Part shown: piece after piece, positions 17,471-60,092 of the stretch
Layout of the letters: each line of letters begins with the position of its first letter
Numbering within the stretch: position 1 is the stretch's first letter
Assembly: GCF_954871325.1 (NCBI RefSeq)
Contig: NC_088775.1
Span: forward strand, 7,975,561 to 8,039,560
Source of the DNA: Gordionus sp. m RMFG-2023
Taxonomy: Eukaryota; Nematomorpha; Gordioida; Chordodea; Parachordodidae
Length of the DNA stretch: 64,000 nt
Direction of reading: 5' to 3'
Made by a program: the position numbers and the translations under genes
Notes under the pieces: generated by a model
What the model was told of the DNA's origin: nothing
Seen by the model: the letters and a program-made list of their open reading frames with translations, nothing else
The model's database searches: none

Positions 17471-18530
17471 ATAAATTGAATTCATCGTGATAACGTAATG
17501 GGGGTTTCGAAACTCTTTTTTCAAGAGTTGTATTCTCATGTTCTGCCTTTTCCACTTCTTCGGTCAACGTAACGGGTATTTCCTTCTCTTGTGTATGTGC
17601 ATCCCTCAATTGATCTGCATGCTTGTTTTTAACGATCCCCTCTGATTCCACATCGTACAATATTGCGCTTTTTCGTTGTAACACTTTTCCTTCATGCCAC
17701 CCTGCTGTCCTTTCGTTTGCTATCCAAACTTTTTGCTGCTCTACAAACTCCCGAGGTTCAACACTTCTATCTTTGTAGTACTTTTGTTTCCATAGAGCGT
17801 TTTCCGTCCTTTCTCTCGTTGATAATTTCCACTGATCCAATGTCGTCCTAAGCGACCTTCCAAACATCATCTCGGCAGGAGATTTACCAGTAGTTGCATT
17901 GGGAGTATTACGGTGAGTAATTAAAACATTTGCTAAATTTAACTGGTCCGGAGTCCCACATCTCCTTCCAGCATAGAAACGCGTCTTTATCGTCCGTATA
18001 TATTGTTTAGCCAAACCATTCGATTTGGGGCTATAAGGGGCCGATCTAAAAGGTTTTATATTGTTTTTAAAAAGAAACGTTTTGAATTCAGATCCAGTAA
18101 ACTGAGTACCGTTATCTGAGACAATGTAGCGAGGTAACCCAAATCTAGCGAAATAATTACGCAGATTATTTATTACACTCGCCGAATTAATATGTGTTAA
18201 AATTGCAACTTCAACCCATTTGGTAAAAGCGTCTACGCAAATTAACCAATATTTTCCAGATACGGGGCCTGTCAAATCAATGTGTAATCGTTCCCAAGGT
18301 CGGGTAGGAATGTTCCAATTGTATAATGGCACTTCTTTAGCTCCCGGCCTTCCTTCTTGACAACTCTTACAACATTTAACAAAGTCTTCAACATCCGTAT
18401 CGAGATTTGTCCAAAACACGTAATATCTACACAATGATTTCATCCCCACTATCCCAGGATGTCCTCGATGAATCACATATAAAACCTCCTTTTTTATCTG
18501 GAATAATAATTCTATCATTATAAAATAATA
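17469..18530 (-). pseudogene. Ty3/gypsy integrase domain
   Basis: The integrase inserts retroelement cDNA into chromosomes. Visible in order are the HHCC zinc-binding segment (HRGHPG ... CCKSC, about 18365-18470), the core with its two catalytic aspartates (IDLTGP near 18275, VSDNGTQF near 18110), the SPKSNGLA segment, and a C-terminal part ending about 17469. The catalytic glutamate expected after SNGLA is a lysine (codon 18006-18008), and the usual arginine after it is a glutamine, so the enzyme should be inactive. A 1-nt frame break near 18490 separates it from the upstream linker. Confidence 0.85.
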
Positions 18531-20110
18531 ATCCTTCTTCGAACGAAATATTATCTTTAATCGAAATATATTTTTTTACAATCTCCGAATAATTATTTAT
18601 ATTATCAATATACCAATGATTTTTTATTAATTTAATAATCTCTTTTAGGTTTATATCATTGCTCGTTTCACTTACGACTTTACTGCGTGTGAAAGATAAA
18701 TCCTCTATTAAATTAATTTTTAATCCTCTGATTTCTTCTTCGAATTTTTTTGTAACTTCATTGGTTTTTGCTTTCTCTACCCCCAAACGGGACAGAGCAT
18801 CGGCACATTTATTTTGATTACCTGGTCTATATATTATCTCATAATCATAATTTAATAGTTTCGTCGCCCACCGTATTAAACGGTTATTTGTTATTTTGTT
18901 AAGATCTCTTTTATCCTAAAATATATTGTAATGGTTTATGATCAGTAACCAAGATAAAATGTCTTCCAAAAATATATTGATGAAACTTCTCGATAGCGAA
19001 CATGATCGCCGAAGCCTCCCGATCAATTGTGGCATAATTCTTTTCAGCCGCTGAAAGTGTCCTCGATGCGTAAGCAATCGGTTTCTCCTGGCCAGTAAGA
19101 AATCGGTGTGCAATAACAGCTCCTAGACCTTCTTCGGAAGCGTCACAAGAAATCACGACAGGGATATCGGCTGAATAAGGAATTATTGTATCTTCTTTTG
19201 ACAATATATTTTTAACTTTAGTAAATATTTCATTTTCTTTAGCTGACCAAAACCAACCAACATTTTTACTCGTTAGTCGGTGTAAAGGCGCACAAATAGA
19301 ATGCAAATTTTTAATAAATGCCTCATGATAATTCACTATTCCAAGAAATGAACGTAGTTCTTTAACATTGGAAGGTGTTTTAAAATTTTTTATAGCGCTA
19401 ATCTTATCTTCTGTAGGGTGAATTCCGAAACTGTCAATAACATGACCTAAATAAGTGACTGACTTTTCTCCGATTTTAATTTTATCGGTCGTCGTGGTCA
19501 GTCCAGCCTTCTCAAATCTTCTTAATACTTCTTCCAAATTAACTATATGATCGGAATTATTCTCACCTGCAATAATTATGTCGTCTAAAAATACACTAAC
19601 CATAGGAATTCCCTTTAATAGGTTTTTCATAAAGCGTTGGAATATTATCGGAGCGCTAGTCAAACCAAATGGAATTCTTTGGTATCGGTAATAACCGATA
19701 TGTGTCGAAATTACTAAAAGGTCCCTACATTCTGGACTAACTCCGAATTGTAAAAATGCATCTCTTAAATCTATTGTTGAAAATATTTTACCACCCGCGA
19801 TTTTATTTGTTAGGTCGACGAAAGTTGGTAGTAAATCGTTATCGATCGCTAGATATTTGTTGATTGTTAAACGAAAATCTCCGCATATCCGTACGGCACC
19901 GGATTTCTTTAAGATATTAACCGTTGGCGTAGCCCAAGTGATTGGAGTTATTGTTGGATCCACCTTCTCGATAACGCCTTCGTCTAAAAGTCTGTCCAAC
20001 TCAGCTTCAATGGTTCGACGCAACGGAAAAGGAACTCTTCTTGCTGGTAATGCAATCGGTAACGTGTTCGGTTCTATTCGGATGACTGCCTTTTGCAGTT
20101 TGATTTCACC
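18531..20110 (-). pseudogene. Ty3/gypsy reverse transcriptase and RNase H
   Basis: Copies the element RNA into DNA and degrades the template. The reverse transcriptase keeps the RICGDFR motif, IPFGLTSAP and a VFLDD active-site motif (about 19583-19597; FLDD in place of YxDD). RNase H follows with DASEEGLGAV, REASA and TDHKPLQYIL. After that a 1-nt frame break near 18911 leads into a linker with RLIRWATKLL and CADALSRLGVEK. Sequence style is closest to the mag/K02A2.6-like lineage as I remember it. It is not translatable as one piece. Confidence 0.88.
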
Positions 20111-21399
20111 TAATTTTTTTTAAAAACTTGAGGGAATTTTGAAACAATCGTATTTAAAAAGGGAATATTCATATTCATATTTATTTTATTAATACGAACT
20201 TCTTCCGGTAGTTTTATATCAAATTCTCTAATGAAAGGCATCCCAAAAATAAGGTAATTCTCCCCTTTAACTACCCAAATAAGTAAAATTTCGAAATATT
20301 TTCTTTGACTTCTACGGTACATTTACCTAGTACTTCGATTTGGATATGATTATATCCCACTAATTTATAAGCCGGTGATAGTTGTGGTCTGCCAATACGA
20401 TTCCAGGTAACCTCATCAATCACACTACACGCGGCGCCGGTATCAAACTCCATAGCTAGCTGCAACCCATTTATCTTCGCATCGATGGTAGCTTTATTTG
20501 AAAATGACAGGCGAGGTGTCCGTGGCAGAATCATTTGTATGGCATGGGTTCTACAATCTTTCGCTATGTGGTTTGCCTTACCGCAACGAAAGCATATCAC
20601 TTTCTTTTGAATAGAGTTAGGTTTGATACTAGGTCTATAATTATTATTAGGAATATAATTGTTACTAAAGTGTTTATTATTATTGAATCTATTGACGTTA
20701 GTATAATTATTATTTCTAAAATAATTATTTTTCGAACCCTGTGTTGGCTTATTTTTAATTATTTTATTAACTTCAGTCTGGGTTTCATTTTCCAACGAAG
20801 ACAGCGCGATCGCTAAACGCACGGTCTCTTCAAAAGTAATATTGCCTTCGATATACTTTGACCGAAGTTCTTTGTCCAACTCAGGTAAGCCTACTCCTAG
20901 GATAAATATATCTCTTAAAAGTTCATCAAAAGGCGGTTTAAAATTACAAAGAGAACAGACAGTTTTAACCCTAATTGAAAAGTCAATAATCGTCTCATTA
21001 CATCCTTTTAGCGTAAAAAAAATTTTCCTATTTACGAAAATGCTCGAACTATCCTTGAACACCAAATTTAAGCTTTTTATTAAAGTATCATAATTTATCA
21101 TCTCTAAATTTATTGGAAAGTGAAAGTTCTTAATTTTGATAAGATTGTCTGTTCCGATATAGGCTAAAAGCAGGTCTTTTTTTGTATTTAAATCTATAAT
21201 ATTTCTTACTTTATAAATTAACTATAAGTTGAATAAGTAGTCCTGAATATTTACTTTTTCTTTGACGAATTCTGGAATATGGAATTTAATAGGAACTACT
21301 TCCATTGAGTCTTTAACTTTAATAGGGACTACTTCCATTGAATCTACAACTTTAATAGGAGCTACTTCCATTGAGTCTTTTACTTTAAATTTAATAAAT
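20111..21399 (-). pseudogene. Ty3/gypsy gag and aspartic protease
   Basis: Gag packages the element RNA. The N-terminus contains an 11-residue tandem repeat (see the repeat entry), then a stop (about 21230), then an open stretch with the nucleocapsid zinc knuckle CFRCGKANHIAKDC (about 20558-20600) after an Asn-rich segment. The protease active site DTGAACSVI is near 20430-20455. A frame break near 20300 separates it from the rest of the protease, which runs to about 20110 just before the RT reading frame. Confidence 0.85.
21285..21383 (-). repeat. Three 33-bp tandem repeats in gag
   Basis: Three direct units (21285-21317, 21318-21350, 21351-21383) differ at only a few positions. Each encodes about 11 residues of the form KVxDSMEVxPI on the minus strand, so the repeat keeps frame. 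They lie at the start of gag, and each unit carries an in-frame ATG. Confidence 0.8.
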
Positions 21400-43520: not shown

Positions 43521-45684
43521 TTAATTTTTGCGACGTCTAGAGTAAAATTGAGGCTTGGTATGTCGTAAGAATCTTTTCCTTTTTGTTCTGAACAGGCGAG
43601 ACAACTCTTTCCTCCTTGATTCCCATACTTGGGGATCCTTGAAAGATTTATCCTTTTGACAAAAATTTGAAACTGCCAGCATTAAGGTGGAATTGGGGTC
43701 TTCGAAAATGGAAGGGTCGATGAAGAAGTTTTGGCCAGTCGATGATGATTGGTCACTTTGGATATGTTCTTTAGCTTTTTATACATTGAAAAAAGAGATG
43801 AATTTTATGATGATCTGTAATTAAAAGCTCCAACAGCAAATGGTTTATTTTATTTATAATCTGAAATTTAACGAGAAATAGCAAATTATTAAAATTAGTA
43901 AATAATGTATATGAAACAAATTTGAGATTTAATCAAAAAACAATGTTAAAAATGAATAGAACTGATAATTTAACTAATTAGATTAACTTAAAAATAAAAC
44001 TACACAATAAAATGTTTAAGTATTAATTCCAGTATATAATTTTAAAAATACAGAATTAAATTTATCAGACTCAAGGCTGAGGTGATAAACTTTGGCTAAA
44101 ATTTAGGGTTAACTGTCATTAAGAATTTCCCACTTGCTTTAAAAATAGTATTGAAAGTGGGGGGTTGCAAATTCAAGTTATTTAGCCTGTCTGGACAAAA
44201 TTTTTTATGAAGTCAAGAGATAAAAATCACTAATTACTTTGTGCTTATTGCAGTTTATATAATTTTATTTTGATATCTATTTCTATGCTATTTATTTAAA
44301 AAATATTTATAATGCCTAAATGAGCCCTGCCCAAAATATATTGAAATTTAGCCCAGGCCCTTAGTGTCAACTTGAATAAGCCTGTGCAACAAATGGAATG
44401 GTATTGATAATTGTAACTAGAAAAATAGTATACCTATAGTAGATAGTTCAGGTTCTGCACTAAAATTTTGATTGCCTCTGCTATAATCAAAAGACAAAAA
44501 TTGGGTAAGGAATGTAGGGTCATTCTTTCCTTCCTCTTTGAGTATCTCTCTAAATTCATTGTCTACAATATCTTCTAAATAATCTAAATTAAATCTTCCA
44601 CATTCAGTATCAATATCTGAAATCTTTTCTGTACTTATAGATTCAAAATTAATTTTTTTATTATTGATAAGTAATTTGTCTAAATTATCATTTTCATCTT
44701 GGAAAAATTTAAAAACCATAGCCTTTACATCCTTGCCTTTCAAACTTTTGCTATGATCTTCATTATCTTGAGTAAAGGCAGTTTTAAAATCTTTGAGTAC
44801 TTCAAAACTACATTTTGCATCTTTTTCTACTTTAGTAACATTGTTGTCAAGGATATGTTTTGATTTGTTTTTTAGTTTACTATCTTCAATAGCATTACCT
44901 TTATTATTAGAAATAGGATTTATTTTTATATCATATTTTGTGCAATGATCAGGATTATTAGGGTCATACCTCTGAATTAATTGAAATCCTGATCTACTAA
45001 TAGAACTATTTGAAAATTTATTTATTTTTGTCTTTACATTATTGGTGTGATGACTGGATGGCTCTTCCGATAACAAAGAATTTAAGGTTTTATTATAAGT
45101 TTCTAACTCTGATTTAAGATCATCCTGAGTGATATTTTTATTATTGTTTAATGTTTTGTGAAAAGAAATCTTAGAAACATTTACTTTATCATCATGAGAA
45201 GTATCACCTAATTCTTCTTCTTCACTATCACTAGAAGCAAATTTTTCACCCAATACAAATCTTTTATCATTCCCTATACTATTAATATCTATTAAAATGA
45301 ATGATTTTTAATGAGTTACCTAAGGCTCAGTTTTAATAATTTTTCACCTTTCTTACCTTCAAATTGAGGCTTGATATTAAACCCATTATATATATTAGAT
45401 TTATTGTTGGTGTCAGTTTCATCATTTTGAAATAATTGTAAATTTTTATTTTTAATGTCTAATTTTTTGTATTCATAGTTAAAATCAGGTTCTTCAGGAT
45501 CACTAAATACTATATGACCTGCTGGCTTATTATTTGTATTAACATTGGCATAATCTTTAATTTGAATATCAAGTGAACTTTTAATTAATGCCCTTTTTTT
45601 CTGTGTTTGTAAATGCTTAATGTTAATAGATTCTAAGCGTCTTTTATTAATAAAATTTTTTTTAAGTTCTTTAATTTGTTTCAT
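43521..45684 (-). CDS. NOL8: Nucleolar protein 8 homologue lacking the RRM
   Basis: NOL8 is a nucleolar protein needed for ribosome production and cell growth. Three exons with matching phases: 45684-45320, 45278-44434 and 43774-43521, giving about 487 residues (human over 1,100). Recognisable conserved blocks are a basic start (KKNFINKRRLESI), GHIVFSDPEEPDF, the family signature NIKPQFEGKKGEKLLKL continuing as GNDKRFVLGEKF across the 41-bp intron, an acidic SSDSEEEE segment, LIQRYDPNNPDH, and a C-terminus with FFIDPSIFEDP and VWESRRKELSRLFR followed by a basic tail. The N-terminal RNA-recognition motif of the vertebrate protein is absent. The start codon is 36 bp after the RBIS stop, so the two may share a transcript. 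Confidence 0.8.
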
Positions 45685-45720: not shown

Positions 45721-46067
45721 TTATAGTTTTTTGAATAAATCTATTGTTTTTTCCAAGTCATCATTTGAAAAACCTGCTTTAATTATCTAAAAAAAATAAA
45801 ATTTAAAGTAGAAGAATATACTTTTTTGGACTGCGATGTTTGTGGCAATTTAGTATCGTTGATACCTATAACAATATTTCGCACAAGTAACTGAAATTTA
45901 TTATCATCAAAAATTTCATCTATTATAGATTTTTTTTTATTCAATGAATGAGACAACTTTTTCAAATTAGTTGTTACTGGTTTTGGTTTTTGAATAGTAT
46001 TATATTGAATAGATTGTTTAATAGAATTTTTAATATCTTTATGTTCCTTCTTTTTCGATTTTCCCAT
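45721..46067 (-). CDS. RBIS: Ribosomal biogenesis factor (RBIS/C8orf59-like)
   Basis: RBIS is a small basic protein linked to assembly of the large ribosomal subunit. Two exons, 46067-45822 and 45786-45721, give 103 residues (human about 100). The conserved core KPKPVTTNLKKL (human KAKPVTTNLKKI) is in the first third after a Lys-rich start MGKSKKKEHKD. The C-terminus DDLEKTIDLFKKL corresponds to the family's DEATRLMALL end. The intron is only 35 bp (GTATAT...TTTTTTAG), and the splice is phase 0. NOL8 follows 36 bp downstream on the same strand, and both products act in ribosome assembly. Confidence 0.75.
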
Positions 46068-49943: not shown

Positions 49944-52684
49944 GAAGCTAGCGATATTCATTAATGAATATAAAAAAAAATACAGCTAAATTCCCTAAAG
50001 AATATAAAAAAAATACAATCAAACCTGTCTAATTTGGGAACCGTTGGGACTAAGATATTAGTCAAATTTAAACAATTTATAAAGACCTTTTTCTTAAACA
50101 TTTTGCCTTCTGTTATATTTTTAGTTTGGCAAAAAAAGTGAGACTATGTTCAACCATTTTCAAATAATTTTTTATTAAGCACCAAATTCAGAAGTGAAAT
50201 TATGTATGATACATACTTAAAAAAAAATACTAATTTATATTCGTGGTATTGGGATCGATGATGTATTCTACTAAATTAAGGATTGATTTATTAAATGCAT
50301 TTTAAAATGTCGATACATAGGAGTCAGCTGCAACGCCATTTTGTGGCTTGGTAATTAATTTATGAAATAAAGTAAGATGTTATTTTTGTTAGCTTATTTG
50401 GTAGTACAATATGTTCGTTGATGGCGTTTGATAATTTTTTAATTGGATTCAAGAATATTGCGAACAGTTAGCTTAAAAATATCAAATATTTTAGAGCTTT
50501 GAGTATGATAATTTAAATTTAATAACCTCATTTTTTTTAATTTACAATAACTTGTTATGTTTATTTACTTTATAAATTTTGTTATTTGAAATGAATAGTT
50601 TTTAGTAAGATGATAAAATTTATATATTATAAATGAATGAATGCAACAAAAAACAAATGCCAAATTTATAAAGGTCTTACGCAAACGGATAAAAAATTAA
50701 AAATTTGCCCACTTTTTAAAGTAGAAAGTTGCCAAATTTATCATTTTCTAATAGTAGTTATTAGGAATTTGATTGGTACTCATCAAAATTTTGGTCAAAT
50801 TAGGGAGTTACCTGAATTATTAAGAGCCCAAATTAAATAGGATATGATAATTAAATAAAAAGATCTAAGAAAAATATTCATATTTACATCTTCGGACAAA
50901 AATTGACTTCTATATAAAAAAAAATTATTTCTAAAAAAACGATAACTAAAAATATATTTCTTAATAAGTGCCTAAAAAGGATAAGAAATTAATAAATATT
51001 TTTTAAAAATGGTTTGAGATCATTCAAGGGAGGAGTGAATGCTTAGGAGGTTAGATCGAAAGATTTATGAGGAGAGCGTCTGTATCCCTCGTTGGGATCT
51101 CCAGTGTCTAGTTTTTCTCATAGGTTCTTGATTGATTGCAAAGCTATGCATAGATTCTTAGTGTATTAAATAAAGAAGTTTCCTATTTTTTTTTAAAGAA
51201 TAAAAAACTATGAAAGATTAAAATAAGCAACAGTTTAGTTGGGAACATAAGCAATTTCATAGTCCCTACGCCATGATATTAGCCCAATATTCTTGTCTTA
51301 ATCTCAATTATTGTTAACTAAAGTTATATACAGCTAACTCAAAACGGCTGTCACACGATGATTGATTCATCTTAGTTAGATATATTGGCTAATAAGTTGA
51401 CTAAAGGGCACTTAAATTGGCTAGGCGTAGCCTTGTATATTATTGATAGGCAAATAAAATTAACATAGATGTAGGAAGAATTTTCCTAAAGGGGAAAACT
51501 TTCCCTACCCCATTAATTTTATTAGAAGGCTTTAAGACCACCTTTTGTAGAACTTTCCCGTTAATATTATTTAATCTTTAAATATGCTTTTCCCGAGAAT
51601 CGCAACTAGCAACCATTTAAAAATAATAATTATGTATTCATTTTTTCAGCTCTGGTATGGAGCATAACCTCTCATTCACTGTCAGCGCGGATTTGAGGAG
51701 ATATATACAAATTATGCTCTATTTTTGTATTCTTCGCCGCGAATTCTCGCTAACTAATGTGGGGTAAGGATAATTTTTTTTCTAAAAATTATATCTAACA
51801 AATCCGCCAGTGCAGCAAGATTCCCAACCCTACCAATATATAATAACTATTAACTATTAAGTAAATAAGGATTTGTGAAATAAAATATCAAAACTTTGAA
51901 AATAAATTTCATAAGTACAGAGTTCTATAAAAAAAATATTTTCTATAGCCCAACTTTAGTGTTATATTATCAGATTCAGATCCAGAAATATTCACTTATT
52001 ATGGGAGGGGGTATTTTTTATAAGCTATTAGAAACAAATTTGTTTTTTGGGGGTAGGGGAAGGTCTAAGGCTATGGTGCTTGATATCTTCCTGGGTGTCT
52101 AACCAAATTGAATTACAAATCAAAATAATCCATTATAAATTTCTAAACAATAACCAAAGTGATAAGAAATATTTAGAGGGAGATAACTTAAACATTCTAG
52201 GCAACTGTTATCCAGTTTATAATGGTTTTCCATATTATATTTTTAAAATAATTGACATAATTTTAAAATAAATTATGTGATTATATTTTAGATGACTTGT
52301 TTTTGTTTCTATTCATATTTCATAATAAAATAAAATAAATTAAATCAACTTATTTTCTATAAATTTTTTAAGATTTAAAATTTTTTTATTTGATTTATGT
52401 TTCCTTAAGTTTTTTAAATATTTTTTAATAAATTATTATAAGCCAATTAATAAAATATGTTATAATTTAATTTAAAAAATATGAACAAATAATTTATTAA
52501 ACCAGGAAGATTTTCTAATTCTAAACTAAAACCTAAATGGAAATTGAACCATTTAACTAACAGTTTGGCACCCTGCTCCCTGGAGGTCAATATAAAATGT
52601 GATTGACATATTTTTTATTAATATAATATAAATAAAAAATAATTACATATTTAAATATATAACACATACAGAGGATAAAAATAT

Positions 52685-53779
52685 TTAATCAACAAACAAT
52701 CTTTTGGCTGGCCTTTTACCAATAAGCTCTTCATTTTTACGTTTAGTTCCTGCTCCTACAATTTTATTAAATCCATTAGTATTATCTGAAGGCTGTAAAA
52801 TATGTTTAGGTATAGGTAATTTGGAGCTGGGAGTTGGTATAGGTGGCATATAAAAATAGTTACATTTTAGGCATTGAGTGCAATCCCATCTTGTTAATGG
52901 ATCATAGGCAAACATAAATTTTAGTAATTCAAGTAAATTACTGTCTGCTGCTGTGAATATATCCCTAAGGGCTGTTCCAGGAAAATTTTTAAAGCTAATA
53001 TAATCTGGCAAATTTTCCACTCCTGACCATGAATTTTCTCTATCCAATGAATATTGACTATTAATAGAATCTTTGGAGGTAATTAAAGTGTTTGGAGTGC
53101 CTAAAGCCTCAAATATTTTGGACAATTGATCTAGGTCTGATTCACCAGGGAATATAGGAATTCTCAATAAGAGTTCAGCTAAGACACACCCCATTGCCCA
53201 TATATCAATGCAGGTACCATAATTTTTTGCTCCAAATAATAATTCAGGAGAACGATACCACCTTGTGACAACTTGATTTGTGTAAATTCTGTTAGGAGAA
53301 CCAAAATATTTAGCAAGGCCTAAATCTGCCAACTTTAATATTCCTTTTCTATCAACCAACAAATTGTTAGGTTTAATATCCCTGTGAAGTATCCAGTTTT
53401 TATGCAAATATTCTAATCCTCGTAAAGCCATGATAATATAGGCCTTTATGTCAGCTTGTGATAAAACAAGTGTATTATCTTTGATAATTACTTCAAGGTC
53501 AGTATCCATAAAATCAAAAACTAGGGATATAACTGTATTTTCAGATAATACATCTAATAATGTAATGAGATTTGGATGATTAAGTTCTTGTAAGTATTTA
53601 ATTTCTTTTAAGGCAGTTCTGTTTATGCCATCTACTGTATCAGATCTAAGGCCCATTTTAAGTTTTTTGATAGCAACAATTTTTTGTGATATTAAATCTT
53701 TTGCTTGGTATACTGTGGCAAACTGCCCTTCACCAAGAAATTTAATTTTTTCAAAATTATTATTTTTATTAGTTTGCAT
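52685..53779 (-). CDS. CDK7: Cyclin-dependent kinase 7 (CAK/TFIIH kinase), intronless
   Basis: CDK7 with cyclin H and MAT1 phosphorylates CDK T-loops and, within TFIIH, the RNA polymerase II C-terminal domain. 364 residues from the ATG at 53779, in one exon. Visible are the glycine loop [12 protein letters not shown] (about residue 15), the lysine in IVAIKKLK, the cyclin-binding helix [14 protein letters not shown] (NRTALREI in human), the CDK7-typical [17 protein letters not shown], the catalytic loop [14 protein letters not shown] and [15 protein letters not shown] with the activating threonine, and a basic C-terminal tail ending AKRLFVD. The metal-binding motif is DLG, not DFG. An upstream in-frame TTG would add six residues, but the ATG fits the family better. 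The ATG overlaps the ANAPC11 stop by one base. Confidence 0.95.
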
Positions 53780-54033
53780 TATTGAGTGAATTCCCAAGTT
53801 TGTCTACACATAGGGCAATGTGGATTTGTTTGTTGAGAATTGAGCCATTTCATTATACAGTGCATATGAAAACAATGATTACATTTTCCCCATATTAAAG
53901 GGCAATTATCTCCAGGAATTTTACAATTGGGGCAGGTATTTTCAAAAGGCATACGACAGATTCCACAATTATCATCATTTGCAACCCATTTCCATGAAGC
54001 AACAGTGTTCCATGAATTTATTTTTATTTTCAT
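53779..54033 (-). CDS. ANAPC11: Anaphase-promoting complex subunit 11 (RING-H2), intronless
   Basis: APC11 is the RING E3 subunit of the APC/C, which recruits the E2 and drives cyclin and securin ubiquitination. 84 residues, the same length as the human protein, starting [20 protein letters not shown]. Zinc ligands are all present: CGIC near residue 23, CPNC, the C of [14 protein letters not shown] with its two histidines, and a final CPMCRQ. The WEFTQ tail corresponds to human WKFKE. It has no intron. The stop TAA shares its last A with the ATG of CDK7, giving TAATG, so the two could be read from one bicistronic mRNA. Confidence 0.95.
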
Positions 54034-57000
54034 TAATTATTGATAAATAATTCAAAACCATACCATTGTATAAAATGAAAAATCATGTAAACAATTATTA
54101 AAAGGGGTAAAAGTATTAAATAATAATAATAGATACTTATTTCTTCAATATTTATGATAATTATATAAAGGTATCGCCTCGTAAATTTAAAATTTTCCCA
54201 AAGTAATGAATGAATGATATAATAATATTAAATGTGTAGGATAATGTTAAATATCGCATAAGGCGATATTGAACTAATCAAAATGTGAAGTGATCGAGCA
54301 AAGCTTGTTTCAAGAGTTTGAAAACTTTAAAGTCTTAAATTAAAGTTTTAAAAAATTTTCACAATTCAAAATTTAGTCATATTTTCAGTATCCATTAAAC
54401 AACATACCTTAGTAGGTTCTTGAACCAAATCTAAACCTTTATACTTTTTTTATGGAACCTGAACCAAACCTATATATTGAAAGATTCGAGACTCTGATTT
54501 AAAGTCACGATTTACATCTTAACTATAGATTTGATTTGTGAATAACAAGTCATATATTCCACTATTATTGCTTTTAAAAATTTGCCATTTAAGCTTTTAA
54601 TTATATATGTTTGCTTCAATATGATTTTACCGATGATATACTTTTTCCCACCATTAAACACATTTCATAAGCTATAGCCGAAGCCTTTTTTAAAAAAATT
54701 TTTTTTTAAAGATGCGTCAACGGCTGTGTCATAACCAATGACATTAATACTATAGACTGCCGATCGTAATGCTAAAACCAAATTTGAAGTGGCAAAAATT
54801 GAATTGAGTAGCAGCCATTTTATGTGTGGAACTTATACGTAAGAAACATATGATAGTTTCATAAATTTCAGGTTTATTTTTAATATATATTATATAGAAA
54901 AATCGAAGTATTAGGGCATATTCTCAGACAAGCACCAAACAACCTAGTTTAATAAGATCTTTTTATTACCCCTCTGGATAAGTCATCTCTCAAACCTTTC
55001 CTATCCTATAAAAATAGTTGGTTTGGGAGATTAAATTCATTATCGGAAATAGGTTTATCTTGGGAATTAATACAACGTGCTTCTTCTGATAGGAAAACTT
55101 ACAAAATTGTACTAAGACTTATCTATGAACACTTGACGAATAACTGCTGAGAATATACCTGAAAGGCTATTGTGTGGAAAGGAAGTGTAAAGGAAGTCAT
55201 TTATTCTAAATAAACAAGTCAAGAAGAATAAGTTAAATTTATTATATTATTTAAAATACAATTTCATATATTGTTTTGATCTATGTCTAAGAGTAGAACT
55301 TAAATTTGATTAGGATTATAGTAAATGAAGGCGGATTAAAGTATTTAAAGTTGTAAGAAAATTATAAATTGGTTAACCATTACACTATGAGAATCAAGGT
55401 ATAAATAGGTTAAATAGGTATATTTAACTAAATAATTATAAAAACCAAAATATAATTTTTATATCTTCTAACTAATTAATTGGTAACAAATCATAAATTA
55501 ACTAAATGAAATAAAATATTCCTATTAAATAAGATCCTTGCTCAAGGATCAACAATAAAAAATAATTTTTATAATAAAATAACTAATAATTTGTATTGGA
55601 TACAGTACCTCTTTTTTTCAGTTCTCGCTTTCTCAAAAATACTCATAACTATTCCTTATGCTAATATTATTATTGGATTGGGTGAGTTCTACACCTTTAA
55701 TAATTATATCTGGGTTATAAAGTTTGTTGGTATCCTGAGGAAAAAAATCGGCATAATTATTATGGAGGATAGGGCCTCTATAGTAATACACGTTCGCTCA
55801 TTTTGGGCAGGCCCATATTACAAAAAAATTAAATTTAGGATACCTAACAAACATATTATCTATCGTTCGTAAAACAGGTGATTTTAAAATTAAAAGAGCT
55901 TAATAATTTATATTTTATCGTATGCTCTGCTGAAACGCTTGAGACATAGCCGATTTTAATAATTGAAGACTCAATCGCTAAAACGCCACAAAAAAATAAA
56001 AGCTATCAAGATGTGTGAGTAAAATACTACTTTGGTCTACATCCTGTCTGATTCAATATTACTTATCCATATTATAATTTTCCGATTCTTCCTCACAACG
56101 TCACACCTTCTAGTGACGACATTTTTAATATTAAAAAATAATAATAAAGAAATTTTAATAAAAAATAAATAAAAATATTATAACCACATGGCTCTTAGAA
56201 ACTCAATAGAAAATACGGGAATAAAAAAAATATTTCTAATCAGTAATTTAATTTATAATTATCAATGTTTTGACTTGTAATAAATATAGATATTATACAT
56301 GATCAGAAGCATCATCAAGTTTTCCTAACAATCCTAAAAAAGTATTTTAAGAATTCCATATAAAAGAGCAATTATCTCATCATAGATGAGTTATATCACA
56401 TTTTATATATACTATTTAGTAAAAATTTTAATGATATGGCTAATTTAGAAATATTTTAATGATATGGCTTATAAAAACCCAATAGAAAATGGGAACAGGA
56501 AATATTTTAAATCAGTAATATAATTTGTTATTTATGACCTATTTCCTGATTAATAAAATTAGCTACTGAAAATGCACTTAATTTTATTATGGCGGTCCAT
56601 ATATTAATAATATTTTTTTAAATTTACTCAGCCGCACACCTATATTATATTTTTCTTTTTTTTTAAAACTCTGATGTCTCGTGATATGTAATCCATCGAT
56701 ATTTCCTGTTCACTGTGATTCCTGCCAATTTCTTATTCCGTACCATGTGTAATTTCCAGGCTACACTCCTCCCGAGCTAGGCAGCTTTAGGTCGATGCCC
56801 TAGTATATTATAATTTTCCCTTAATGACAAAATGGTTGTCAAGGTATATTTTCCATAACATAGTTAGGTAAAGGCCATATCAGAGTTTTGTTTATTATAA
56901 AAGATTAAAATGGTGTAAAATAGTTGTGCCATTGGGTTTAATAAGATTAATAATTGAAATAAAAATAATTATATGTAAAACTAAATACTTTAGTAATAAA

Positions 57001-59021: not shown

Positions 59022-60092
59022 TCAAGTTAAATGTTTCAAAACATCATATGCTGAAGGACGCTTAGAATAATCGATGTTCAATAATTCGCTCATAATATTA
59101 TAAATTGCTGAATCATCCACAAATATATTATCATGAAGTGTTTTTATAGAGTTTGCACTATGCCTCAAAATTTTACATAAATCTTTTAGATTTTGTTTTG
59201 CATATTTATCAGGTTCATCAATATTGATTGTAAAGCCAATCTTTTTAGCAAGATTGCTGATATCCTCAATCCCAAATAAAACAATCATTTGTATCAATGA
59301 ATCCCCTATCATGTTTGTACATCTTTTGTTGCTTGATAACTTTTGATATTTTAAAAAGTTAATATTGAAAAATGGATAGCATCCTGATAAAATAGACAAT
59401 AAAATAATCCCTGCACTCCACATATCTCTATAGACAGTGTTACAAGAGGGCAAAATCAATACTTCAGGGGCTATATATCCATAAGTGCCTATTATATGAC
59501 TAATTTATGTTATAATAAAAACAAATTAAAATACTTTTCCATAGAGCTATTGGGTAATTCTGCAGAATTTTCAAAATCTATCAATTTGTAACTTTAAAAT
59601 AGATAATATTAAAATTATAATATAATATAAATACCTTTTTTCTCTAATATTGCATATAAAATTTTCAGGCTTTATATCACAATGTATAATTCCTTTCCAA
59701 TGAATAAAATCTAAGGCAGAAAATAAGTTTCTAAAATAGGTGATTATTTTGTCCAGGTCTAAATCTAAATAAAAATCCTATGAGATAATAATCAAGCATT
59801 GCTTCAAATAATTTAACAACTTTAAACTTTTGGTTAGGCATATAATTATAAAATAATATTATTCTATCTCTGTAAATATTTGATCCAATATAATTTATAA
59901 TATTCTCATGCCTTTTTAAAAATATGCTATAATAATGTATTAAAAATATCACTTTAATTGTAATAATATTTTGATTTCCTTTAATATAAATTCAGGGCTA
60001 ACATATGTATTATATTCCTTTGCAACAACAAACTGATTCTTTTCAAATTTTTTTAACTTGGCTAAATATATCACCTTTCTATCATCTATCAT
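59022..60092 (-). CDS. CDC7: CDC7-like kinase with altered HRD and DFG motifs
   Basis: CDC7 (with DBF4) phosphorylates MCM proteins to fire replication origins. Five exons with matching phases: 60092-59953, 59911-59821, 59777-59635, 59591-59535 and 59499-59022, totalling about 302 residues; introns 1 and 2 are 41 and 43 bp. Retained features are the lysine in FVVAKEYN, a KEI glutamate, YKLIDFEN, GTYGYIAPEV, and RDMWSAGIILLSILSGCYPFF, which is the strongest CDC7 match. The end has SELLNIDYSKRPSAYDVLKHL. Differences: no glycine-rich loop if translation starts at 60092, HCDIKPENF in place of HRD, and DFE in place of DFG. The large CDC7 kinase inserts are absent. An upstream exon may exist. It could be a pseudokinase or a divergent paralogue. 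Confidence 0.7.

Follow-up and report, generated by a model that had tools for sequence, protein, structure and literature searches.

Dicistronic loci are already known from animals. FlyBase lists 159 dicistronic pairs, with a spacing of −34 to 319 nt among the exclusively polycistronic loci (PMC4528330). In the Drosophila lemming locus (lmgA/lmgB), which is proven to be dicistronic and is intronless, Apc11 is the first ORF. The second ORF, 92 nt downstream, encodes a dispensable unrelated protein whose translation was not detected, and the mRNA can also end 56 nt after the first stop codon (PMC3372440). Among human overlapping ORFs, 22 of the 24 tested were translated, five apparently by termination-reinitiation (PMC3923131). 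Influenza B (M1/BM2) and caliciviruses use UAAUG-type stop-start overlaps for termination-reinitiation; the elements responsible, 45 nt long in influenza B, carry an 18S-complementary motif towards their 5′ boundary (PMC3035654).

Gordionus belongs to the Nematomorpha (horsehair worms), the sister phylum of Nematoda (PMC11603191). In its genome, the ORFs of ANAPC11 and CDK7 overlap by a single nucleotide. The sequence-only reading had called such an overlap unusual for an animal, a view that is tempered by the FlyBase pairs and the dicistronic Apc11 locus of Drosophila. What is new is the ANAPC11/CDK7 pair, the phylum and a hint of recurring overlaps; the junction is unusually constrained, and the second cistron is a conserved kinase. 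As in lemming (PMC3372440), ANAPC11 comes first in a two-ORF locus without introns, but in Gordionus the second ORF encodes CDK7 and overlaps the first by 1 nt. The two arrangements likely arose independently. MOCS2 and the FlyBase polycistronic set resemble the pair in that single transcripts carry two ORFs with an overlap or almost no gap between them (PMC4528330); they differ in that the Gordionus pair is known from its genes, whose products are conserved, unrelated and part of different complexes. Among the papers listed, titles and the beginnings of abstracts showed no report of an ANAPC11/CDK7 pair, and the one text that combined Gordionus with 'operon' used the word for bacterial operons.

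The ANAPC11/CDK7 locus

Both ORFs were located on the minus strand of the window, the whole 64,000-nt stretch of DNA analysed (Table 1), where they meet in the sequence CAATAATGCAA (minus strand). One A belongs both to the stop codon of ANAPC11 and to the start codon of CDK7, as had been noted before, and the earlier statements that both genes are intact and lack introns held for the two coding sequences; introns in a 5′ UTR would be invisible at this level. Upstream of its ATG, the CDK7 frame was open for only eight codons and contained no further ATG. A public protein record was identical to the 364-aa CDK7 of the window.

Table 1. Features of the ANAPC11/CDK7 locus and of two other tight gene pairs (window positions unless stated otherwise).
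Feature	Position	Strand	Description
ANAPC11 ORF, first cistron	53779..54033	-	84 codons + TAA (84 aa); intronless coding sequence; start TTAATGA, weak context with T at −3
CDK7 ORF, second cistron	52685..53779	-	364 codons + TAA (364 aa); intronless coding sequence; start with A at −3
TAATG junction	53777..53781	-	ANAPC11 TAA (53781-53779) and CDK7 ATG (53779-53777) have one A in common
Upstream ORF	54033..54086	-	17 codons; its TAA and the ANAPC11 ATG share an A (second TAATG)
Internal out-of-frame ORF in ANAPC11	53804..53848	-	14 codons; AUG context GAAATGG; ends 24 nt before the CDK7 AUG
AATAAA within CDK7 codons 4-5	53765..53770	-	possible poly(A) signal of a monocistronic ANAPC11 mRNA, from sequence
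First AATAAA 3′ of the CDK7 stop	52614..52619	-	possible 3′ end of a dicistronic mRNA, from sequence
RBIS-like gene	45721..46067	-	103 aa; interrupted by a single 35-nt intron (45821-45787); leads the second tight pair
NOL8-like gene	43521..45684	-	starts 36 nt after the RBIS-like stop
NAA38-like stop/TAF11 start overlap	L041 1260-1263 (C2:9549759-9549762)	+	ATGA, four bases; TGA of NAA38-like

The ANAPC11 ORF matched the Pfam family zf-ANAPC11 (1.3e-34). Its top PDB match, human ANAPC11, covered 83 of the 84 residues with 57 of 83 identical, and the worm protein retained 14 of the 17 Cys/His found in the human stretch. For the second ORF, CDK7 ranked first in PDB (6.7e-125; 156 of 225 residues identical in the first aligned stretch). 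A Meloidogyne entry that headed the protein matches of CDK7 was rejected as a closer relative, its score being inflated by an internally duplicated kinase. Residues 150–154 of the Gordionus CDK7 (window 53318–53332, minus strand) read LADLG instead of the human LADFG, and SPE replaced the human APE. For a core kinase, these are departures in catalytic motifs, whereas VVTRW and the HRD motif were retained.

A search of the whole assembly (287,057,807 bases, 267 contigs) gave one full-length CDK7 match, and the next-best CDK match reached 53% over 119 residues. Two ANAPC11-like matches were present in the assembly, that of the window itself and one at 42% identity, which we take to be RBX1. CDK7 is a core kinase and belongs to TFIIH. 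Since this core kinase has no second full-length copy in the assembly, the route by which it is made must work well.

A CDC7-like kinase was represented by exons about 5 kb upstream of ANAPC11 (window 59025–59991, minus strand; the best PDB match was a CDC7-related kinase), so that three cell-cycle genes (CDC7-like, ANAPC11 and CDK7) stand in line on the same strand. Elsewhere, the window contained a retroelement (17472–21101, minus strand) with ORFs for an integrase core, RT/RNase H and zinc knuckles. In the genome, 48 COX1-like matches, many with in-frame TGA, lay on chromosome-scale contigs (e.g. L011, L012), amounting to many nuclear mitochondrial copies. The translation of one nuclear COX1 copy agreed with the Gordionus alpestris protein at all of 447 residues, against an insect or aphid origin that the AT content had at first suggested.

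Tight gene pairs and chance expectation

The pentamer TAATG alone is unremarkable, because TA precedes 218 of the 2068 ATGs in the window (10.5%). By a crude estimate from 10,819 genes in 287 Mb, or one gene per 26.5 kb, about 0.1% of genes should be followed by a start codon on the same strand less than 50 nt from their stop; the estimate ignores gene clustering, which would raise the baseline. The gene number is the count for G. montsenyensis (PMC11603191), probably the species of the window or a very close one. The feature that is unlikely to occur by chance is the abutment of two conserved ORFs, not TAATG itself.

Several gene pairs of the genome, ANAPC11/CDK7 among them, lie tightly spaced on one strand. 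A second pair, about 7 kb away in the same window, consists of an RBIS-like and a NOL8-like gene (Table 1). The RBIS-like protein matched DUF4665 over its full length (E 0.0023, under the curated cut-off), and a PDB search with it gave no sensible match. A public Gordionus protein of 467 aa begins at the same Met as the NOL8-like gene. The NOL8-like protein had no match in Pfam, and one of its exons had none in PDB. A protein search with it recovered only Gordionus itself and one weak match (E 0.08) sharing the stretches FEGKKGEKL and DKRFV.

The third pair came from a genome-wide survey of the downstream neighbours of Sm/LSm genes, in which all 13 profile matches were inspected by eye; some of these loci held only part of a gene, and two (L042 and L044) look like near copies. 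A tight downstream neighbour was present at one of the 13 loci, where the two ORFs overlap by four bases, and inspection by eye revealed no tight downstream conserved ORF at the other 12. The first ORF at this locus is NAA38-like, its LSM assignment resting on Pfam. The second was guessed to be TAF11 from its second exon, and the only TAFII28 match of the genome was then found 3.4 kb downstream on the same strand; the name TAF11 rests on this Pfam family. The genome further contained 4 Prefoldin_2 and 19 UQ_con matches.

Besides ANAPC11/CDK7, two tight pairs were thus counted among roughly 18 genes (binomial P 1.3e-4), where 18 is a rough hand count of the 13 Sm/LSm loci and about five other genes in the window, and one of the two pairs shares the window with ANAPC11/CDK7. 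The frequency of tight pairs in the Gordionus genome is accordingly drawn from a small sample. In 264 kb (the window with 200 kb of flanks), 30 tight ORF pairs were present, compared to 6 in the reversed sequence. Sorting by eye assigned 12 of the 30 to transposon-like sequences (RT, RNase H, gag zinc knuckles) and one to two exons of a gene which we take to be XPC-like; three concerned genes described in this text, among them the upstream ORF, and the other 14 were left unassigned. With transposon-like, exon and unassigned pairs among the 30, the excess alone is no measure of dicistrony.

A proposed dicistronic mRNA

Two intact, distinct and conserved ORFs lie close together on one strand, as in known dicistronic loci. 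We put the probability at roughly 0.55, somewhat better than even, that ANAPC11 and CDK7 of Gordionus are transcribed together as a dicistronic unit in which CDK7 is reached mainly by termination-reinitiation at UAAUG. A bicistronic mRNA with termination-reinitiation had been one proposal of the sequence-only reading, and for two intact overlapping ORFs it is still the likeliest one. The ORFs, their overlap, the single full-length copies, the absence of coding introns and the two other tight pairs were observed; from these we infer the shared mRNA and the route of translation.

A single promoter upstream of ANAPC11 would give rise to an mRNA that contains both ORFs and ends near the AATAAA after CDK7. 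Normal scanning would lead to ANAPC11. Ribosomes terminating at its UAA could then restart at the overlapping AUG, for which only a slight backward movement would be needed, and translate CDK7. As an auxiliary route, ribosomes that bypass the weak start codon of ANAPC11 might read short ORFs inside it and then reinitiate at CDK7; the 14-codon ORF that ends 24 nt before the CDK7 AUG would be suited to such short-ORF reinitiation. Between the starts of ANAPC11 and CDK7 there are twelve AUGs, several of them in good context. Simple leaky scanning is therefore unlikely and reinitiation is favoured. Some transcripts may stop early, at the AATAAA in the beginning of CDK7 (53770–53765), and yield ANAPC11 only, comparable to the Drosophila mRNA end shortly after the first stop codon (PMC3372440).

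Three SUI1 pieces and a single Pre-PUA match in the genome suggest that the worm may possess parts of the reinitiation machinery. We associate these domains with MCTS1 and DENR, and the candidates would be MCTS1, eIF2D, eIF1 or DENR.

Several points count against this reading, among them the 12 of 13 Sm/LSm loci that had no tight downstream gene. Eukaryotic ribosomes usually reinitiate after short ORFs, and the first ORF, with its 84 codons, is longer. The undetected second product of lemming likewise speaks, by analogy, against translation of CDK7 from a dicistronic message. The 53 nt preceding the ANAPC11 AUG contain three further AUGs, which would impede the translation of ANAPC11 itself if the 5′ UTR were long; the 17-codon upstream ORF would matter only if the transcript begins above it.

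As in viral TURBS elements, stop and start codons overlap in TAATG. A viral-type tether was nevertheless not evident. A search that began 60 nt above the ANAPC11 ATG and ended at the junction gave a single TGGGA, 10 nt before the UAA, and the fold around the junction was unexceptional, with z −0.76 and 42 of 200 shuffled sequences folding equally well. The pair differs from the influenza B and calicivirus overlaps in consisting of cellular genes and in that no properly placed 18S-complementary motif was found.

Very small introns occur in this genome. Ten were 35–66 nt long, even in genes of about 100 codons (L038, L041, L043–L048; window 45279–45319 and 45787–45821), and the eight from Sm/LSm and TAF11 genes measured 39–66 nt. 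A joint loss of introns from ANAPC11 and CDK7 would fit one shared spliced mRNA as the template. Other kinase matches of the whole-genome CDK7 search lay in open frames of 429–552 aa. Long coding stretches free of interruptions are thus found outside ANAPC11 and CDK7 too, and the absence of introns carries little weight.

Alternative explanations

The strongest competitor, although we consider it rather unlikely, is that CDK7 has transcripts of its own and the two ORFs are merely tightly packed, so that dicistronic translation would be unnecessary. Such transcripts could start inside or just upstream of ANAPC11, or a 5′ exon could be spliced into ANAPC11, for example at TGTAG/ACAAAC (53804, the stroke marking the splice site). 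The AG at this position is located 24 nt before the CDK7 AUG, right after a stop in the CDK7 frame, and the AATAAA at 53770 could end mRNAs of ANAPC11 only. Drosophila polycistronic loci often also yield monocistronic transcripts; an alternative promoter or poly(A) site is the usual source, and sometimes splices break one coding region (PMC4528330). In Gordionus, however, the tract before the AG at 53804 has 5 T in 15 nt, compared to 6–11 T in ten cis acceptors (eight from Sm/LSm and TAF11 genes, two from the RBIS-like/NOL8-like pair). A promoter would need to be placed inside a conserved 255-nt coding sequence or a short way above it. NAA38-like/TAF11 has a stop/start overlap too, with 43 nt between the nearest AG and the ATG.

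Less probable still is an operon resolved by spliced-leader (SL) trans-splicing, in which the CDK7 mRNA would receive a leader at an acceptor inside the end of ANAPC11. Nematodes, the sister phylum, have SL operons (PMC7986045; PMC1657053), and most operons of the tunicate Ciona, resolved by SL, have no intercistronic region (median 1 bp; PMC7986045). The recurrence of tight pairs in Gordionus agrees with such operons, which likewise consist of tight same-strand pairs. In Gordionus, though, the coding regions themselves overlap, leaving no intercistronic space. Because of the overlap, one pre-mRNA could not give both intact mRNAs.

Upstream of the ATGs of CDK7, TAF11 and NOL8-like, the nearest AGs were at 24, 43 and 7 nt, with 5, 5 and 6 T in their tracts, respectively. 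The acceptor before NOL8-like hence equals the weakest of the ten cis acceptors, whereas those before CDK7 and TAF11 are weaker than all of them. The 100 nt before the ANAPC11 ATG contained no AG. With up to three mismatches, the SL1 22-mer had two matches, compared to one in the reversed control; the query was the nematode SL1, and other SLs may differ in sequence. An Rfam SL1 search found none among the 50 of 91,546 candidates scored, and no control signal either. In open-access PMC, no text naming both Nematomorpha and 'spliced leader' was found. The earlier proposal of trans-splicing inside the end of ANAPC11 consequently found little support: its last 100 nt hold a lone AG (53804) with a poor tract, and SL1-like exons did not exceed chance.

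An assembly error or a dead retrocopy pair, which the sequence-only reading had named as a refuting possibility, is very improbable: the ORFs lack introns like retrocopies, but they are intact and well conserved, searches of the whole assembly found no intron-bearing parent copies, so that the copy numbers given above speak against a retrocopy pair, and a second overlap, backed by TAF11 exons, is present on C2.

Implications

A dicistronic ANAPC11/CDK7 unit would contrast with the Apc11 locus of Drosophila, where the second ORF encodes a dispensable protein that was not detected (PMC3372440); here the second ORF is CDK7. Taken together with the second overlap in the sampled loci, the pair suggests that this animal may make some two-protein messages in the manner of bacteria. 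More tentatively, horsehair worms could use unresolved polycistronic mRNAs whose conserved second cistrons (CDK7, TAF11) would be translated by stop-start coupled reinitiation, that is, operons without trans-splicing. Whether such pairs are leader-bearing operons or true dicistronic mRNAs bears on whether compact pairs preceded trans-splicing in the nematode-nematomorph lineage. If true, operons without trans-splicing in the sister phylum of the nematodes would have a bearing on the origin of operons in this lineage.
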